From Stenotrophomonas maltophilia (GTDB lineage Bacteria; Pseudomonadota; Gammaproteobacteria; Xanthomonadales; Xanthomonadaceae), in assembly GCF_006970445.1 (NCBI RefSeq), contig NZ_CP033877.1, positions 3,852,750-3,916,749 on the forward strand: a stretch of DNA of 64,000 nt, read 5' to 3'. Shown piece by piece: positions 53,461 to 63,309 of the stretch. Below the pieces are notes generated by a model. The model had not been told where the DNA came from, did no database searches, and saw only the letters and a list, made by a program, of their open reading frames with translations. Within the stretch, counting starts at the first letter, position 1. Each line of letters begins with the position of its first letter. The position numbers and the translations under genes were made by a program.

Positions 53461-55299
<1,839 letters not shown>

Positions 55300-55341
55300 G
55301 TCACGCGTTTCCTTGAAGACGATCGGCGCATTCTAGCCCGC

Positions 55342-55410
55342 GTGTCCGGCTTCCCCCTCCTGTCCGCTTAATGAAAGTGTCCGGAAAGGTGTCCGCGGAC
55401 ACCCGGACAC
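55342..55410. promoter_or_regulatory. cluster of GTGTCCG half-sites, candidate enhancer for the NtrC-type regulator
   Basis: GTGTCCG occurs at 55342, 55377 and 55389, with CGGACAC at 55396 and 55404 and a shorter TGTCCG at 55361. The central pair is the perfect 14-bp palindrome GTGTCCGCGGACAC (55389-55402), framed by a second inverted pair. Its centre is about 85 bp upstream of the predicted sigma-54 start. The leftmost half-site lies next to the glmS -10. Confidence 0.7.
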
Positions 55411-55453
55411 TGCAGCAGCCATCCCAACCCATTGACCTGAAAGGAAATAAAGT

Positions 55454-55469
55454 TGGCACGCTACATGCT
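55454..55469 (+). promoter_or_regulatory. sigma-54 (-24/-12) promoter
   Basis: TTGGCACG-CTAC-ATGCTT matches the sigma-54 consensus YTGGCACG-N4-TTGCW except for one base. GG (55455-55456) and GC (55467-55468) are spaced by exactly 10 bp. Predicted start near 55480, about 23 nt before the exporter operon ATG. Confidence 0.75.
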
Positions 55470-55502
55470 TGGTACTCACTACCACCGTCAGGCACGCACC
55501 CG

Positions 55503-56780
55503 ATGATCCGCGACACTTCCGCACAGGACCAGATCGTTTCCTCCGCCCCGGCCGGCCGGCCCCGTGCAAACTGGCAGCGCTACCGCTGGCCTGCGCTGGG
55601 TGCCATCGCGCTGCTCGCCGGCATCGGCTGGGCGGTGCATGCCTGGTCCAATGCCAGCCGCTCCTTCGACAGCAGCCGCGTGCGCATCGCAGAAGTGAAG
55701 CAGGGCGACCTGGTCCGCGACATCGCCGCCGACGGCCGGGTGATCGCCGCCAACAGCCCGATCCTGTACGCCATCTCGGCCGGTACCGTGGACCTGAAGG
55801 TGGTCGCCGGTGATGTGGTCAAGAAGGGCCAGGAACTGGCGATCATCGACAGCCCGGAATTGCGCAGCAAGCTGGCCCAGGAACAGGCCACCCTGGCCGG
55901 CCTGGAAGCCGAGGCCAGCCGTGCCGCGCTGGACGCCACCCTGGCCCGCGCCAAGTCGCGCAAGGAAACCGACCAGGCCACCATCGAACGTCAGGCCGCC
56001 GACCGCGACCTGCAGCGCTACCAGCGCGGCTACGACGGCGGTGCGGTGCCGCAGATCGACCTGGCCAAGGCCAAGGACTCCCTGAAGAAGGCCGACATCA
56101 CCCTGGCCAACGCCACCACCGATGCCCGCCTGCAGAGCCAGGGCGCCGACCTGGATGCCCGCAACAAGCGCCTGCTGGCCGATCGCCAGAAGGCCGTGGT
56201 GGCCGAAGTGCAGCGCCAGGTCGATGCACTGACCCTGCGTGCACCGTTTGACGGCCAGGTGGGCCAGGTGCAGGCGATCCAGTCCACCAATCTGGCCGCC
56301 AACGCGCCGGTACTGGGCGTGGTCGACCTGTCCAAGTTCGAGGTCGAGATCAAGGTGCCGGAAAGCTTCGCCCGCGACCTGGCGATCGGCATGCCGGCGC
56401 AGCTGACCGGCGGCAACGGCCAGCCGTTCCCGGGCGAGATCAGCGCAGTGTCGCCCGAAGTGGTCAACGGCGAGGTCAACGCCCGCGTGCGCTTCGCCAG
56501 CGCGCAGCCGGAAGGCCTGCGCCAGAGCCAGCGGATGTCGGTGCGCGTGCTGCTCGATACCCGCAAGAACGTGCTGAAGGTCGAGCGCGGCCCGTTCGTC
56601 GAACAGGGCAATGGCGTGGCCTACGTGATGGATGGCCGCACCGCAGTGCGGCGTCCGGTGGAACTGGGCGTCAGCAGCCTGGGCGAAGTGGAAATCAAGT
56701 CGGGTGTGCAGCCGGGCGACCGCATCGTGGTCTCCGGCAGCGACCTGTTCAAGGACGCCGAACGCGTCTCCGTCAACTGA
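55503..56780 (+). CDS. HlyD/MacA-type periplasmic adaptor of an ABC exporter
   Basis: 425 aa. One N-terminal transmembrane helix (about 33-48), lipoyl half-motifs, a coiled-coil hairpin (about 115-240), a beta-barrel and a membrane-proximal domain. It should link the inner-membrane permeases to a TolC-type channel, which is not encoded here. ATG 55503 is chosen because the longer frame runs through the promoter region. First gene of the operon. Confidence 0.9.
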   Translation: MIRDTSAQDQIVSSAPAGRPRANWQRYRWPALGAIALLAGIGWAVHAWSNASRSFDSSRVRIAEVKQGDLVRDIAADGRVIAANSPILYAISAGTVDLKVVAGDVVKKGQELAIIDSPELRSKLAQEQATLAGLEAEASRAALDATLARAKSRKETDQATIERQAADRDLQRYQRGYDGGAVPQIDLAKAKDSLKKADITLANATTDARLQSQGADLDARNKRLLADRQKAVVAEVQRQVDALTLRAPFDGQVGQVQAIQSTNLAANAPVLGVVDLSKFEVEIKVPESFARDLAIGMPAQLTGGNGQPFPGEISAVSPEVVNGEVNARVRFASAQPEGLRQSQRMSVRVLLDTRKNVLKVERGPFVEQGNGVAYVMDGRTAVRRPVELGVSSLGEVEIKSGVQPGDRIVVSGSDLFKDAERVSVN

Positions 56781-56815
56781 TACCTGATACCTGAATCCTG
56801 GAGAGAGGACACCCC

Positions 56816-57541
56816 ATGTACATGCTCGAAATGCGTTCGGTCGCCAAGGTCTTCCGCACCGAACAGGTGGAAACCCACGCGTTGCGCTCACTGGAACTGC
56901 AGGTCAAGGAAGGCGAGTTCGTCGCCGTTACCGGCCCGTCCGGCTCGGGCAAGACCACTTTCCTCAACATCGCCGGCCTGCTGGAAACCTTCACCAGTGG
57001 CACCTACATGCTCGACGGCCAGGACGTGAGCACGCTGGGCGACGATGCCCGCAGCCGCCTGCGCAACCAGAAGATCGGCTTCATCTTCCAGGGCTTCAAC
57101 CTGATCCCCGACCTGAACCTGTTCGACAACGTCGACGTGCCGCTGCGCTACCGGAAGATGAGCGCCAACGAGCGCCGCGAACGCATCGAGAAGGCGCTGA
57201 CCCAGGTCGGCCTGGGTTCGCGCATGAAGCACTACCCGAATGAACTGTCCGGCGGCCAGCAGCAGCGTGCGGCGATTGCGCGTGCGCTGGCCGGCAGCCC
57301 GCGCCTGTTGCTGGCCGACGAACCGACCGGCAACCTGGATACGCAGATGGCGCGCGGCGTGATGGAACTGCTGGAAGAGATCAATGCCGCTGGCACCACC
57401 ATCGTGATGGTCACCCACGACCCGGAACTGGCCGCGCGCGCGCAGCGCAACGTACACATCGTCGACGGCCAGGTCACCGACCTCGTGCGCGAGCCGGTGC
57501 TGGCTACCCCACCGCGCCACATCGTCGCCGTCAACGAGTGA
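56816..57541 (+). CDS. MacB/LolD-type ABC transporter ATPase
   Basis: 241 aa. Walker A GPSGSGKT (40-47), Q-loop FQGFNLI, signature LSGGQ (144-148), Walker B with ADEPTGNLDT (167-176) and switch His in MVTHD. The NLDT form is typical of MacB/LolD ATPases, which drive mechanotransmission rather than membrane transport of substrate. A GAGAGAGG site precedes the ATG. It lies 35 bp after the adaptor. Confidence 0.94.
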   Translation: MYMLEMRSVAKVFRTEQVETHALRSLELQVKEGEFVAVTGPSGSGKTTFLNIAGLLETFTSGTYMLDGQDVSTLGDDARSRLRNQKIGFIFQGFNLIPDLNLFDNVDVPLRYRKMSANERRERIEKALTQVGLGSRMKHYPNELSGGQQQRAAIARALAGSPRLLLADEPTGNLDTQMARGVMELLEEINAAGTTIVMVTHDPELAARAQRNVHIVDGQVTDLVREPVLATPPRHIVAVNE

Positions 57542-57551
57542 GGGCCCGACC

Positions 57552-58850
57552 ATGTTCGCCTACTACGCCCGATTGGCGGCGCGCAGCTTCCGCCGCAACA
57601 AGATCCTGACCGCGCTGATGGTCGTGGCCATCGCGCTGGGCATCGGCGCCTCGATGACCACGCTGACCGTGTTCCATGTGCTTTCCGGCGACCCGATTCC
57701 CGGCAAGAGTGACCGCCTGTTCTATGTGCAGCTTGATGCCGCGACCGGCGCCTATGTCGCTGGCGAGGAACCGGAAACCCAGCTGACCCGCTTCGACGGT
57801 GAAGCGCTGCTGCGCGAAGCCAAGGGTGAACGCCAGGCACTGATGAGCGGTGGCGGCGGCACCATCGAACCGGACAACAGCACCCTCAAGCCCTTCAGCA
57901 TCGACACCCGCTGGACCTCGGCCGACTTCTTCCCGATGTTCGAGGTGCCCATGCAGTACGGCCGTCCCTGGACGCGCGAGGACGATGAAGGCCGCGCACG
58001 CGTGGTGGTCATCTCCAAGGCGCTCAACGACAAGCTGTACCAGGGGGCCAACAGCGTGGGCCGCGACCTGCGCATGGAAGGCCAGAGTTACCGCATCGTC
58101 GGCGTGATGAAGGAATGGAGCCCGGAGCCGCACTTCTACGACCTGACCACCGGCAGCTACGGCAAGAACGAAGACCTGCTGCTGCCGATCTCCACCTCGT
58201 TCGACCTGAAGCTCGGCAACAACGGCAACATGAACTGCTTCGGCGAAAACCCCGACGGCAACAGCTACTCGCTCAATGCACCGTGCGCGTGGCTGCAGTA
58301 CTGGGTGGAAATGGACCCGGCCAAGGCCGGCGACTACCGCCGCTACCTGGAGAACTATTCGACCCAGCAGCGCGAGGCCGGCCGCTTCAAGCATCCGCCG
58401 AACGTGCGCCTGCGCACCGTGATGGAATGGCTGGACTTCAATGGCGCGGTGCCCAGCGACGTGCGCCTGCAGCTGTGGCTGGCGCTGGGCTTCCTCGGTG
58501 TCTGCCTGGTCAACACGGTAGGCCTGCTGCTGGCCAAGTTCCTGCGCCGCAGCGGTGAGATCGGCGTGCGCCGTGCACTCGGTGCCAGCCGCGGCCAGAT
58601 CTTCCTGCAGTGCCTGGTGGAAGCCGGTGCGGTCGGCGTGGTCGGTGGCGTGCTGGGTATCGGCCTGGCCCTGCTTGGCCTGTTCGCGGTGCGCCAGCAA
58701 CCGGTGGAGTACGCAAAGCTGGCCCATCTGGACGGCAACATGCTGCTGCTCGCGCTGGGCCTGACCCTGCTCGCCAGCCTTGCCGCCGGCTTCCTGCCCG
58801 CCTGGCGCGCCATGCAGGTCACCCCGGCCATCCAGCTCAAGTCGCAGTAA
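57552..58850 (+). CDS. MacB/FtsX-type ABC permease, first subunit
   Basis: 432 aa. One N-terminal helix (about 18-40), a large periplasmic MacB core domain and three C-terminal helices (FtsX domain: LWLALGFLGVCLVNTVGLL onward, with EIGVRRALGASRGQIF). It starts 10 bp after the ATPase. With the next gene it forms a heterodimer. Confidence 0.92.
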   Translation: MFAYYARLAARSFRRNKILTALMVVAIALGIGASMTTLTVFHVLSGDPIPGKSDRLFYVQLDAATGAYVAGEEPETQLTRFDGEALLREAKGERQALMSGGGGTIEPDNSTLKPFSIDTRWTSADFFPMFEVPMQYGRPWTREDDEGRARVVVISKALNDKLYQGANSVGRDLRMEGQSYRIVGVMKEWSPEPHFYDLTTGSYGKNEDLLLPISTSFDLKLGNNGNMNCFGENPDGNSYSLNAPCAWLQYWVEMDPAKAGDYRRYLENYSTQQREAGRFKHPPNVRLRTVMEWLDFNGAVPSDVRLQLWLALGFLGVCLVNTVGLLLAKFLRRSGEIGVRRALGASRGQIFLQCLVEAGAVGVVGGVLGIGLALLGLFAVRQQPVEYAKLAHLDGNMLLLALGLTLLASLAAGFLPAWRAMQVTPAIQLKSQ

Positions 58851-58870
58851 GCACCCGAACGAGGACTCCC

Positions 58871-60088
58871 ATGGACATCCGCCCCATCCTCAGCACGCTG
58901 CGCCGGCACAAGACTGCCGCTGCCCTGATCGTGCTGGAAGTCGCACTGACCTGCGCCATCGTCTGCAACGCGCTGTTCCTGGTCAGCCAGCGCGTGGAGA
59001 AGATCAGCATGCCCAGCGGTATCGCCGAGAGCGAACTGGTGATGCTGCGCGTCAGTGGCATCGGCAAGCAGACCGACGCCCTGGCCCGCACCCGCGAGGA
59101 CCTGGCATCGCTGCGCGCGATTCCCGGCGTCAGCAACGTCACCATCATCAACCAGGTCCCCTTCCGCAACGGCTCCTCCAGCAGCAGCATCTCGCGCGTG
59201 ATCGACCAGGAACGGCCGACCACCAACGCCTCGATGTACACCCTGTCCGAGAACGGGCTGGCGACGATGGGCATCAACCTGATCGCAGGCCGCGATTTCC
59301 TGCCCGACGAGTACCAGAACTTCGAAGACGTCAGCAAGGGCGGCGCCAAGGAGAAGGCCATCCCGGTCATCTTCACCCAGGCCACTGCCGCCAAGATGGA
59401 GCCCAACGGCAGCGCACTGGGCAAGACCTACTACATGGGCAAGCAGTCGCTGCATGTGGTCGGCATCGTCGACACCCTCAGCACGCCCAATGGCTGGAGT
59501 GACAACTGGACCAACTCGATGCTGCTGCCGATCCGCACCACCTTCGACAAGGGTGGCACGTATGTGCTGCGGACCTCGCTGGAACGTCGCCAGGACGTGC
59601 TCGACGCCGGTGCCGCCGCGCTGGAGCGCAACGATCCCAACCGCCTGATGCGCGACAAGCTCACCTATGAGGACCAGCGCAAGGACTTCTTCAAGAACGA
59701 CCGCGCGATGGTCGGCCTGCTGATCACCGTCAGCATCTCGCTGCTGGTGGTCACCGCGCTGGGCATCATCGGCCTGGCCAGCTTCTGGGTGCAGCAGCGC
59801 AGCAAGCAGATCGGCATCCGCCGTGCCCTGGGCGCGACCCGTGGGCAGATCCTGCGCTACTTCCAGACCGAGAACTTCCTGCTGGCCACGCTGGGCATCG
59901 TGCTGGGCATGCTGGCGGCCTACGCGATCAACCTGGCGCTGATGAATCTTTACGAGCTGCCGCGCATGCCGCTGTACTACCTGCCGCTGGGTGCGCTGCT
60001 GCTGTGGGTGCTGGGCCAGATCGCGGTGTTCGGTCCTGCACGGCGTGCGGCGGCGGTACCGCCTGCGGTCGCCACGCGGGGCGCGTGA
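58871..60088 (+). CDS. MacB/FtsX-type ABC permease, second subunit
   Basis: 405 aa with the same topology as its neighbour (N-terminal helix at about 17-38, periplasmic core, FtsX helices; QIGIRRALGATRGQILRYF). The two permeases are diverged paralogues, so the exporter is heterodimeric, unlike single-chain MacB. ATG 58871 follows GAGGA. Confidence 0.92.
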   Translation: MDIRPILSTLRRHKTAAALIVLEVALTCAIVCNALFLVSQRVEKISMPSGIAESELVMLRVSGIGKQTDALARTREDLASLRAIPGVSNVTIINQVPFRNGSSSSSISRVIDQERPTTNASMYTLSENGLATMGINLIAGRDFLPDEYQNFEDVSKGGAKEKAIPVIFTQATAAKMEPNGSALGKTYYMGKQSLHVVGIVDTLSTPNGWSDNWTNSMLLPIRTTFDKGGTYVLRTSLERRQDVLDAGAAALERNDPNRLMRDKLTYEDQRKDFFKNDRAMVGLLITVSISLLVVTALGIIGLASFWVQQRSKQIGIRRALGATRGQILRYFQTENFLLATLGIVLGMLAAYAINLALMNLYELPRMPLYYLPLGALLLWVLGQIAVFGPARRAAAVPPAVATRGA

Positions 60089-60089
60089 G

Positions 60090-60488
60090 ATGCGTGCCTG
60101 CGCGATGTGCCTGATCCTGCTCCTGCCACTGCCACTGCCGGCGCTGGCCGGCGGTGGCAGCGCGCAGACACTGGAATGGCGCCAGGATGCCGCGCGGTTG
60201 TCGTTGCGCTCGACGGAGGGCCAGGTGCGCGTGGAGGCCGCCAGTCCGGAAGTGCGCTTCGGCGTGCGCAGTGGCGATCGCATCCTCCGCGTGGACGACA
60301 CGGCGGTGCGCCGGGTTGAACATCTGGCCGAGGCACTCCGCCATTCCCACGCGGCCACCGCCTATCTGTTGCTGCGCCGCGACAAGCGCGAGCTGACGGT
60401 GGCGGTCAACGCTGCAGCCTGGCGCCAGGCGCTGGAAGTGCCGCCGCCACCTGCGCCGCCACCGCCCCCGGCGCCTCCCCGCCACTGA
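60090..60488 (+). CDS. small exported PDZ-like protein
   Basis: 132 aa. A signal peptide (LILLLPLPLPALAGG) precedes a short beta-rich region with PDZ-like features (FGVRSGDRILRVDDTAVRRV) and a Pro-rich C-terminus. It starts 1 bp after the second permease stop, so it belongs to the operon. No named family is recognised; a periplasmic sensor or adaptor role is inference. Confidence 0.75.
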   Translation: MRACAMCLILLLPLPLPALAGGGSAQTLEWRQDAARLSLRSTEGQVRVEAASPEVRFGVRSGDRILRVDDTAVRRVEHLAEALRHSHAATAYLLLRRDKRELTVAVNAAAWRQALEVPPPPAPPPPPAPPRH

Positions 60489-60538
60489 GAAGCGGCAACT
60501 CCTGCACGGCCACGGGTTTGGCTATGCTTGGTGGGTGG

Positions 60539-60556
60539 CGCCGGGCTCTCCCGGCG
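60539..60556 (+). promoter_or_regulatory. hairpin between exporter and regulator genes
   Basis: CGCCGGG-CTCT-CCCGGCG in the 125-bp gap, without a T-run. It could lower regulator expression relative to the exporter or stabilise the upstream mRNA. Confidence 0.4.
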
Positions 60557-60613
60557 TATGGACACGAACACGGCTCCATCGGCGCCGCCCATCCCTTTCC
60601 GCAGAACCGCTTG

Positions 60614-61960
60614 ATGCCTTCGATCCTGATCATCGACGACAACGCCAGTGTGGGCACCGCACTGGACGTGCTGTTCTCCCTGCATGACATCGACACGCTG
60701 CAGGCGCAGAGCCCGGCCGAGGGGCTGGCCCTGCTCGAGTCGCAGCCGGTCGACCTGGTGATCCAGGACATGAACTTCAGCGAGGACACCACCTCCGGCG
60801 AGGAAGGCGAAGACCTGTTCGCACAGATCCGTGCGCGCCACCCGGACCTGCCGGTGATCCTGCTGACCGCCTGGACGCACCTGAGCAGCGCGGTGGACCT
60901 GGTCAAGGCCGGTGCCGCCGACTACCTGGCCAAGCCCTGGGACGACCGCAAGCTGCTGACCACGGTCAACAACCTGCTGGAGTTGTCCGAGGCACGGCGC
61001 GAACTGGACCGCCGACGCAGCCGCGAGCTGCGCCAGCGCAATGCGCTGGAAGAGAAGTACGAGCTGTGCGGGGCGGTGTTCGCCGATCCGGCCAGCGAGC
61101 GCGTCATCGCACTCGCCTGCCAGGTCGCGCGCTCCGAACTGCCGGTGCTGATCACCGGCCCCAACGGTGCTGGCAAGGAGAAGATCGCGCAGATCATCCA
61201 GGCCAACTCGCTGGTGGCCAAGGGTTCGTTCATCACAGTCAATTGTGGCGCCCTGCCCTCGGAACTGATCGAGGCCGAACTGTTCGGTGCCGAAGCCGGC
61301 GCGTATACCGGCGCCAGCAAGGCGCGCGAGGGCAAATTCGAAGCTGCCGACGGAGGCACGCTGTTCCTGGATGAGATCGGCAACCTGTCGCTGGGCGGTC
61401 AGATGAAGCTGTTGCGCGTGCTGGAAACCGGTCGTTTCGAGCGCCTGGGCTCCAATCGCGAACGCCAGGTCAAAGTCCGCGTGGTCAGCGCGACCAATGC
61501 CGACCTGCCGGCGATGATCCGCGACGGCACCTTCCGCGAAGACCTGTATTACCGCCTCAATACGGTGGAACTGGTACTGCCACCGTTGGCCGAGCGCCCG
61601 GGCGACATCGTGCCGCTGGCCGAGCGCTTCCTGACGGCCGGCAAGCCACTTTCCAATGCTGCAACCGCGGCCCTGCAACGGCACCCGTGGCCGGGCAACG
61701 TGCGCGAACTGCGCAACGTGATCCAGCGTGCCGAGCTGCTGGCGACCGGCAACCACATCGAAGTGGCCGATCTGAACCTGCCGCGTGCTTCACCTGCACC
61801 GCGCCCGGCACCGAGCGCCGGCAATGATCCAGACCGTGCGCGCATCGAGGATGTGCTGGCGCGCAACCACGGCGTCATCGCCCAGGCCGCCGCCGAACTC
61901 GGCCTGAGCCGCCAGGCGCTGTACCGGCGCATGGACCGGCACGGCATCCCACGCGAATGA
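60614..61960 (+). CDS. NtrC-family sigma-54-dependent response regulator
   Basis: 448 aa. Receiver domain (phospho-acceptor Asp52, Thr85, Lys107), AAA+ domain with Walker A GPNGAGKE (182-189) and sigma-54 contact loop GAYTGA (229-234), and a C-terminal Fis-type HTH (AAAELGLSRQALYRRM). The variant GAYTGA keeps the Thr and Gly needed for sigma-54 contact. ATG 60614 is chosen by alignment of the receiver start. Likely binds the GTGTCCG cluster. Confidence 0.94.
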   Translation: MPSILIIDDNASVGTALDVLFSLHDIDTLQAQSPAEGLALLESQPVDLVIQDMNFSEDTTSGEEGEDLFAQIRARHPDLPVILLTAWTHLSSAVDLVKAGAADYLAKPWDDRKLLTTVNNLLELSEARRELDRRRSRELRQRNALEEKYELCGAVFADPASERVIALACQVARSELPVLITGPNGAGKEKIAQIIQANSLVAKGSFITVNCGALPSELIEAELFGAEAGAYTGASKAREGKFEAADGGTLFLDEIGNLSLGGQMKLLRVLETGRFERLGSNRERQVKVRVVSATNADLPAMIRDGTFREDLYYRLNTVELVLPPLAERPGDIVPLAERFLTAGKPLSNAATAALQRHPWPGNVRELRNVIQRAELLATGNHIEVADLNLPRASPAPRPAPSAGNDPDRARIEDVLARNHGVIAQAAAELGLSRQALYRRMDRHGIPRE

Positions 61961-63309
61961 AGCGGCGCTCGTTCACCTTCCGCCTGTTCCTGCGCCTGCT
62001 GCCGGTGCTGGCGCTGGCCGCCGCGTTGCCGTGGCTGCTGGCGTACTGGATGGACCATGGCTGGGTGGTGACCACGGTGTCGGCGGTGATCCTGCTGTCA
62101 CTGATGTGGTGGACCCTGCTCCGCGCCACCGCACCGGTGCGCTCGCTGATGCGTGCACTGTCCGGCACCACCAGCAGCTACCGCGACGGCGAGTACAACT
62201 TCGGCGTGTACTGGCCGGGCAACGACGAACTGGGCGACCTGGTGCAGGCGCACCGCGAACTGGGCGATGTACTGCGCGAGCAGCGGCAGGGCCTGGTGCA
62301 GCGCGAACTGCTGCTGGACACCATGGTGCAGAACACACCGGTTGCGATGCTACTGATTGCCTCCGGCGGCGACGGCATCGCCCGCGTGGTGTTCTCCAAC
62401 CTGGCCGCGCGCAAGCTGCTGCATGGTGGCTGGAAGCTGGAGGGCCAGCGCCTGGAAGAGGTGCTGGAACAGGTGCCGGTGGAGCTGCGCGATGCCATCG
62501 CCCGTGGCGGCGACAGCCTGTTCGCCGTGCATGCGGAAGGCGAAGACGGTGATGAGGAAGACGAGCAGGTCTACCACCTGTCGCGCCGCGCCTTCCAGCT
62601 CAACGGCCGTCCGCACGACCTGCTGCTGGTACGACTGCTCACCGCCGAACTGCGCCGCCAGGAAGTGCAGACGTGGAAGAAGGTGATCCGGGTGATCAGC
62701 CACGAGCTCAACAACTCACTGGCGCCGATCGCCTCGCTGGCCCACTCCGGTGGCGTGCTGGTGCAGCGCGAGCGCTTCGATCGGCTGCCGGAGATCTTCA
62801 CCACCATCGAAGACCGCGCACGCCACCTGGAAGGCTTCATCCGTGGCTATGCGCGCTTTGCCAAGCTGCCGCAGCCGCAACTGCAGACCGTGCACTGGGC
62901 CCCCTTCCTGTCCAGCCTGCGCCAGCAGATCCCGTTCACCATGGATCGCGAACCGGACGAGGAACTGAGCAGCCGCATCGACATCGCGCAGTTCGGGCAG
63001 GCGCTGTTGAACCTGCTGAAGAACGCGCATGAAGCCTGTGCCGAGGCCGATCCACCCAACGATGACGTGCAGGTGCAGCTGACGCGGTTGCCGCAGTGGC
63101 TGCGCCTGGATGTGCTGGACCGTGGCAAGGGCATGAACGAGCAGGTGCTGCAGAACGCACTGATGCCGTTCTATTCGACCAAGCGCAATGGCACCGGGCT
63201 GGGACTGGCACTGACCCGCGAGATCGTGGAAGCGCACGGTGGGCGGGTGTCACTGCAGAACCGCGGTGATGGCGGGTTGTGCGTGTCGATCCTGTTGCCG
63301 GTGGGTTGA
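61957..63309 (+). CDS. sensor histidine kinase
   Basis: 450 aa. Two N-terminal membrane helices (about 11-30 and 37-55) with almost no periplasmic loop, a HAMP-like segment, a PAS-like domain with an acidic insert (GEDGDEEDE), H-box VISHELNNSLAPI with His249, and N, G1 and G2 boxes (NLLKNAHEA, GKGMN, GTGLGLAL). The short loop suggests sensing within the membrane or via the transporter. Overlaps the regulator by 4 bp. Confidence 0.94.
   Translation: MKRRSFTFRLFLRLLPVLALAAALPWLLAYWMDHGWVVTTVSAVILLSLMWWTLLRATAPVRSLMRALSGTTSSYRDGEYNFGVYWPGNDELGDLVQAHRELGDVLREQRQGLVQRELLLDTMVQNTPVAMLLIASGGDGIARVVFSNLAARKLLHGGWKLEGQRLEEVLEQVPVELRDAIARGGDSLFAVHAEGEDGDEEDEQVYHLSRRAFQLNGRPHDLLLVRLLTAELRRQEVQTWKKVIRVISHELNNSLAPIASLAHSGGVLVQRERFDRLPEIFTTIEDRARHLEGFIRGYARFAKLPQPQLQTVHWAPFLSSLRQQIPFTMDREPDEELSSRIDIAQFGQALLNLLKNAHEACAEADPPNDDVQVQLTRLPQWLRLDVLDRGKGMNEQVLQNALMPFYSTKRNGTGLGLALTREIVEAHGGRVSLQNRGDGGLCVSILLPVG

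Follow-up and report, generated by a model that had tools for sequence, protein, structure and literature searches.

The operon at positions 55,342 to 63,309 of a 64,000-nucleotide stretch of the Stenotrophomonas maltophilia genome (assembly GCF_006970445.1, contig NZ_CP033877.1, positions 3,852,750 to 3,916,749 of the forward strand; the whole stretch is called the window below) probably encodes an autoregulated tripartite export module driven by sigma-54. It comprises genes for a MacA-like adaptor, an ATPase and two permeases as well as for an NtrC-type response regulator and a sensor kinase. We regard it as a variant of the MacB-type exporter controlled by a sigma-54 two-component system; more surprising are the wide occurrence of this switch within the order, a putative second member of its regulon and the permease cassettes. 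According to the original prediction, the activator of the operon's promoter appears to be a product of the operon itself. This is supported by the conservation of operator and promoter in related genomes, by the conserved co-encoded regulator and by its absence together with the exporter (0 of 15 genomes, see below). The description of the operon as self-contained has to be restricted, since there appears to be an unlinked second target and sigma-54 factors are supplied from elsewhere; two genes encoding such factors are located at other places in the genome.

The first gene of the operon is preceded by a sigma-54 -24/-12 promoter, TGGCACGCTACATGCT (55454..55469, plus strand), showing one mismatch to the consensus that we assumed for scoring. 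Its GG is found at 55455-55456 and its GC at 55467-55468, the latter 35 positions 5' of the A of the ATG at 55503, exactly as predicted. From these positions a transcription start near 55480 is expected. The operator (55377..55410) consists of GTGTCCG (55377) and CGGACAC (55404) flanking the palindrome GTGTCCGCGGACAC (55389-55402), and an outlying half-site GTGTCCG on the plus strand (55342..55348) is not in register in all relatives. GTGTCCG or its complement starts at 55342, 55377, 55389, 55396 and 55404, i.e. five of the 12 copies of the window fall within 69 bp, which agrees with the upstream cluster claimed before. By the Poisson distribution, five heptamers would fall into one particular 69-bp stretch with a probability of about 1e-11, for a stretch picked after it had been seen; over the whole window the heptamer shows no excess (12 copies, 15.3 expected). 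The perfect 14-mer GTGTCCGCGGACAC is present once in the window and is the sole exact copy in the 4.55 Mb genome, where one further place was found at one mismatch. Taken alone, the -24/-12 element is unremarkable (13 sites with up to two mismatches versus 16 expected); we accept it as real because it is conserved in relatives. No RNA element was detected by Rfam at gathering thresholds between 55000 and 64000.

For the comparison with relatives we used a sample of 149 genomes of the family. An adaptor search at E below 1e-50 found the adaptor, whole or in pieces, in 128 of them. Apart from the own genome there were 124 full-length orthologs, of which 120 loci were compared (121 including the window). 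Most of these loci keep the order adaptor-ATPase-permeases-regulator-kinase. Fifteen of the 120 stretches contained no regulator: nine show one further downstream, five stop at a contig end, and the remaining one, from genome G101, has none in 26 kb. Absence of the palindrome and of the -24/-12 element before orthologous operons would be at odds with the prediction; instead, TGGCAY-N6-TGC lies within 300 bp upstream of the adaptor gene in 119 of the 121 loci (opposite strand 1/121; shuffles 0.28 on average, at most 3). The two loci without it are L132 and L157, the latter having a near variant. At least two GTCCG/CGGAC half-sites were found 25-100 bp upstream of the element in all 119 loci that carry it, compared to 2.3% of 2400 control stretches. 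Counted from TGG, they are concentrated around -79 to -76 on the GTCC side and around -51 to -48 on the GGAC side. Judged by eye, the group of the window has the full palindrome in the middle and others have two palindromes about two helical turns apart. The upstream palindrome of the original prediction is thus real as a perfect 14-mer in the window, but the operator as such consists of several half-sites of variable spacing among relatives, which rules out one strict palindrome. Given half-site clustering, conservation, shuffles and control stretches, we rejected a chance origin of operator and promoter.

The arrangement extends beyond the family. Among 116 matching genomes in the order, 20 loci from three other families were selected, and all 20 possess the element with at least two half-sites. 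A regulator match is present in the stretch read at 16 of them, one of which (L418) has only a distant one. In a class-wide search of 274 genomes, four outside the order reached E 1e-50.

The regulator gene (60614..61960, plus strand) encodes 448 amino acids with the phosphoacceptor candidate D52 in the receiver, GAYTGA at residues 229-234 and an HTH_8 domain; Pfam matches over cut-off cover the receiver, the AAA+ domain with its GAYTGA-type loop and the Fis-type helix-turn-helix. Of 121 regulators, 120 retain the acidic pair, Asp 52, Thr and Lys in the receiver, the other one not being covered, and 113 have exact GAYTGA. The recognition helix LG[LM][ST]RQ[AS][LF]YRR was found in 116 of 122 regulators. 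The six misses comprise slight variants (L140, L149), sequences truncated where the stretch stops (L128, L409), a lost frame (L048) and a different regulator (L418). The five other activators examined in the own genome have different recognition helices. All 21 family genomes lacking the exporter were searched for a regulator ortholog at a threshold of 400 bits. None of the 15 genomes with a completeness of at least 90% contains one; two of the 21, with completeness values of 71 and 76%, do.

The sensor kinase gene (61957..63309, plus strand; 450 amino acids) encodes H249 in the motif HELNNS and two membrane helices separated by a very short loop. His 249 is kept in 115 of 117 matches. Hydropathy analysis of 111 of the 117 kinases revealed two hydrophobic segments in 108, and the gap between their 15-residue cores amounts to 7-16 residues in 94 of 111 (3-24 overall). 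By its sequence, the kinase has hardly any periplasmic domain. In analogy to the sensing logic of Bce-type systems, it would receive its signal within the membrane or via the exporter.

An IHF (integration host factor) site may be a further part of the switch in most of the family. Up to one mismatch was allowed to WATCAANNNNTTR, which we take to be the IHF consensus, and 90 of 119 family loci contain a match immediately 5' of the promoter (about 5 in shuffles). In 78 of these 90 the site is placed 17-18 bp before TGG.

The own genome was scanned by pattern searches for the anatomy of operator and promoter. There is one other convincing place, and a stricter pattern finds these two places only. 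The second place is located upstream of a gene for a secreted-looking protein of 158 residues adjoining trmL (L163:874-1350, minus strand, near 193 kb of the own genome). This protein belongs to NCBIfam family XAC0231 (NF052303), a name to which no function is assigned in the libraries used; a relative at L230 reaches only 64.6 bits, the protein of the own genome 167.1 bits (cut-off 140). Its N-terminus is signal-like, it contains repeats resembling TLxxVQVRPSAEQ, and it shows no Pfam match over cut-off. Its structure model was of low confidence (predicted local distance difference test 62, predicted TM score 0.23) and was not used. From 93 relatives in a collection of named genomes 80 loci were kept. 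They derive from records of Xanthomonas, Stenotrophomonas and other Lysobacterales; a single one (L350) carries the label Bacillus subtilis SK7B5 and is perhaps a contamination, the XAC0231/trmL locus being otherwise observed in Lysobacterales records. The element with at least two half-sites is present in 75 of the 80 loci and trmL follows downstream in all 80. Out of 80 proteins 74 were read, and 60 of these contain three copies of the repeat motif V-x-V-[RKST]-P.

With one genome per genus, 54 genomes were searched, of which 51 contain trmL. Promoter and at least three half-sites were detected at 14 of these 51 trmL loci; nine of the 14 hold the repeat protein and five a short peptide with a hydrophobic start. 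In several lineages such peptides end PGDLPLHLR...C-like. Short peptides with a hydrophobic N-terminus and the ending PGDLPLHLR...C or PGDLGLL...C were observed beside trmL in other genera at L217, L218, L248, L216, L274 and L209. With a loose pattern, control matches were about as frequent as real ones; it was used solely to obtain candidate loci, from which 19 stretches were picked by eye, several of them (e.g. L219, L222, L224) unconvincing. The stricter pattern gave 94 matches in 50 genomes versus 32 control matches, with overlaps inflating the 94, and single sites obtained with it are therefore leads.

Four genomes (L174, L175, L436, L437) contain a second, distant module with adaptor, ATPase, regulator and kinase. 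Its adaptors are 27-30% identical, and half-sites and a -24/-12 element precede these modules. Two of these modules gave a permease match, and the regulators, examined in two modules, resemble each other in the recognition helix that they carry and that of the window.

The structural genes of the window operon were all present in the predicted series of adaptor, ATPase, two permeases, PDZ protein, GAYTGA regulator and kinase. The periplasmic adaptor of the MacA/HlyD type (55503..56780, plus strand, 425 amino acids) matches TIGR01730 with 133.5 bits (cut-off 94.9) and MacA chains in the PDB at about 1e-16; its ATG is at the same position in near relatives. It is followed by a stand-alone ATPase of the MacB/LolD type (56816..57541, plus strand, 241 amino acids). 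Permease P1 (57552..58850, plus strand, 432 amino acids) contains MacB_PCD and FtsX domains. Its structure model has a MacB-type fold with MacB and relatives as best PDB matches, and the fold also matches LolC/LolE, YbbP and FtsX. Permease P2 (58871..60088, plus strand, 405 amino acids) has an FtsX domain and corresponds to the second half of the ADOP model, P1 corresponding to the first. That there are two different permeases was correctly foreseen; the start of the second had to be corrected to the ATG at 58871.

The small PDZ protein (60090..60488, plus strand, 132 amino acids, hydrophobic N-terminus) lies outside the conserved core. A relative was found in just 5 of 120 other loci, two of these weak, and we rejected it as a core component. 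At the same position, between permease and regulator, L073, L078, L084, L106 and L129 carry lineage-specific cargo genes, whose kinds (a PIN-type toxin, a long exported protein and others) were judged by eye without a domain search. An anti-phage system was considered using PADLOC and rejected: ATPase, P1 and regulator correspond to no more than parts of other models, and no match was obtained for four of the seven operon proteins. The operon contains no gene for a TolC-type outer-membrane partner, for which the rest of the genome was not searched; presumably the outer-membrane channel comes from elsewhere.

The permease pair turned out to be one member of a variable cassette, which modifies the claim of two permeases: the operons follow the scheme adaptor-ATPase-(P1-P2)n-regulator-kinase, with n=1 in the window. 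Among 144 operons considered, 134 were read to the regulator and their permeases counted automatically. Two permeases were found in 104, one in a single operon, three in seven, four in ten and 6-14 in twelve. Out of the 29 operons with more than two permeases, 19 are strict P1-P2 alternations and ten are not, owing to lone or misordered calls. Four arrays were listed gene by gene and consist of full-length pairs that follow one another closely and in clean succession. They comprise at least nine pairs in L410/L431 (G378), where the sequence retrieved stops short of the regulator, seven in L416/L433 (G318), five in L059/L426 (G006) and four in L055/L422 (G029, from the genus of the window). Adaptor and ATPase genes remain single in all four, and nine downstream stretches of 18 kb contained at most one sigma-54-type site per strand. 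Judging from gene content, one ATPase may serve all permease pairs. In trees, with the P1 tree read in part only, copies of one pair type from different genera and families mostly cluster together, in preference to copies from one genome, with exceptions such as G347. The pair types therefore look old, and loss or exchange would explain the single-pair operons. Permease copies diverge most in the periplasmic domain; since single-copy orthologs do likewise, we make no claim of selection on specificity.

Among known systems, the type VII ABC exporter MacAB-TolC shares the MacA-like adaptor, the MacB-type ATPase sequence and a permease with the MacB periplasmic core, an FtsX domain and, in the model, a MacB-type fold. 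Different from MacAB-TolC, the ATPase is separate from the permease, there are two different permeases, in some relatives as tandem pairs, and the operon has its own sigma-54 two-component system. The adaptor scores 64.8 bits against the 342 of the MacA equivalog PRK11578, and the fused MacB equivalog PRK10535 (cut-off 966) was reached with only 218.9, 43.5 and 34.1 bits. The darobactin exporter DarBCD also has a separate ATPase and adaptor, and DarD is the best-scoring equivalog model for the window ATPase (258.7 bits, cut-off 375). DarB, however, matches the second permease only and weakly, and the scores stay below the cut-offs of NF038007, NF038008 and NF038010 (258.7/375, 32.9/700 and 49.5/450). 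ADOP proteins (TIGR03434) resemble P1 in their first and P2 in their second half, but here the two halves are split over two genes (178.8 and 189.1 bits, cut-off 622.3). ADOP permeases are orphans, whereas those of the operon stand beside an ATPase. The BceAB-BceRS systems likewise combine a permease of the MacB superfamily with an adjoining kinase that has almost no extracytoplasmic domain. In contrast to them, the regulator is NtrC-type and sigma-54-dependent instead of OmpR-type, a Gram-negative adaptor is present, and the permeases have 405-432 amino acids in MacB/FtsX layout compared to about 640 in the matched Bce chains. The regulator shares receiver, AAA+ domain with GAYTGA and Fis-type helix-turn-helix with NtrC/AtoC-type regulators, but differs in its operator of several GTCCG half-sites and in its linkage to an exporter.

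The probable course of events is the following. The kinase would respond to an alteration of the inner membrane or of the exporter itself and phosphorylate the NtrC-type regulator, which may then bind the GTCCG/CGGAC half-sites, known from their conservation, about 70-105 bp upstream of the start and drive RpoN polymerase at the -24/-12 promoter. In most relatives of the family, judging from the conserved sites, IHF may bend the DNA in between, apparently not in this genus. A single transcript would supply adaptor, ATPase, one or more P1-P2 pairs and further regulator and kinase, and the gene order suggests a positive feedback. The common operator indicates that the same signal may turn on the unlinked gene of the small secreted XAC0231-family protein. 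The most likely cargo would be amphiphilic or peptide-like compounds taken from the inner membrane or periplasm and expelled via a TolC-like channel, and the permease pairs may set the substrate range. A more far-reaching version is tentative and in our view rather doubtful as a whole: a single adaptor and ATPase would form a platform for interchangeable heterodimeric permeases under one self-activated sigma-54 promoter and a membrane-embedded kinase, with the XAC0231-family protein as cargo or partner.

Several observations do not fit self-activation through this switch smoothly and weigh against it. The motif TGTCC-N0-6-GGACA was found in 57 of 121 family loci, the spacing of the palindrome being variable. 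L418 has promoter and operator, with a merely distant regulator (35%), and at L407 the stretch read lacks a kinase. A good IHF site is missing from the own genus (two mismatches in the window and three near relatives), and the exact IHF consensus occurs in just 2 of 80 XAC0231-type promoters, near matches uncounted. Genome G027 (99% complete) keeps the trmL-side gene with its operator and promoter and has no ortholog of exporter or regulator. G110 retains promoter and kinase, with no regulator at the threshold used, and the 26 kb read downstream in G101 contain no kinase either. At the G110 locus (L215) the exporter is missing: behind its promoter, the N-terminal part of the adaptor passes directly into the kinase, which is either a deletion or an assembly error.

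The divergent neighbour of the operon is glmS (53461..55299, minus strand), which shares a 203-bp intergenic region with it. The operator lies within this common region (55300-55502), and the regulator might therefore also affect glmS expression.

Alternatively it might be that the system is devoted to secretion, with the XAC0231-family protein, or the short peptides elsewhere, as cargo of the exporter, and is not mainly a drug or stress pump. Operator and promoter common to both loci and a product with signal-like N-terminus and repeat units would agree with this, and MacB-type pumps do export peptides. By eye, however, the product looks Sec-exported on its own, G027 possesses the trmL-side gene without the exporter, and this gene with its operator is found at 14 of 51 trmL loci versus 128 of 149 family genomes for the adaptor, so that we regard dedicated secretion as rather unlikely. 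Similarly improbable appears a role in envelope maintenance, in which the module would move a lipid, a lipoprotein or a cell-wall intermediate instead of toxic compounds. The divergent glmS, present in 106 of 121 family loci, and the resemblance of the permease fold to LolC/LolE, YbbP and FtsX would fit such a role, but glmS adjoins the exporter in just 1 of 20 loci of the other families, and the 15 family genomes of at least 90% completeness without adaptor and regulator orthologs indicate that the module is dispensable.

The operator might also be bound by another activator, the co-encoded regulator working elsewhere. Other sigma-54 activators are present in the genome, the distant exporter modules have regulators with a similar helix and similar half-sites, and G027 keeps the operator without the regulator. 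Against this stand the joint absence of regulator and exporter and the helix type SRQALYRR, which was not seen in the five other activators examined, and we consider this explanation very unlikely. An export module activated by its own regulator is thus the reading that we prefer.

The steadily kept sigma-54 switch with its own activator makes this a cleanly testable candidate for a self-activating pump operon. The shared operator in addition provides a computed regulon consisting of the exporter, the XAC0231 family and perhaps the distant exporter modules. Should one ATPase indeed serve many permease pairs, the addition of cassettes could give MacB-type exporters a broader range of substrates, which would be a route to transport specificity that is closed to the fused MacB.

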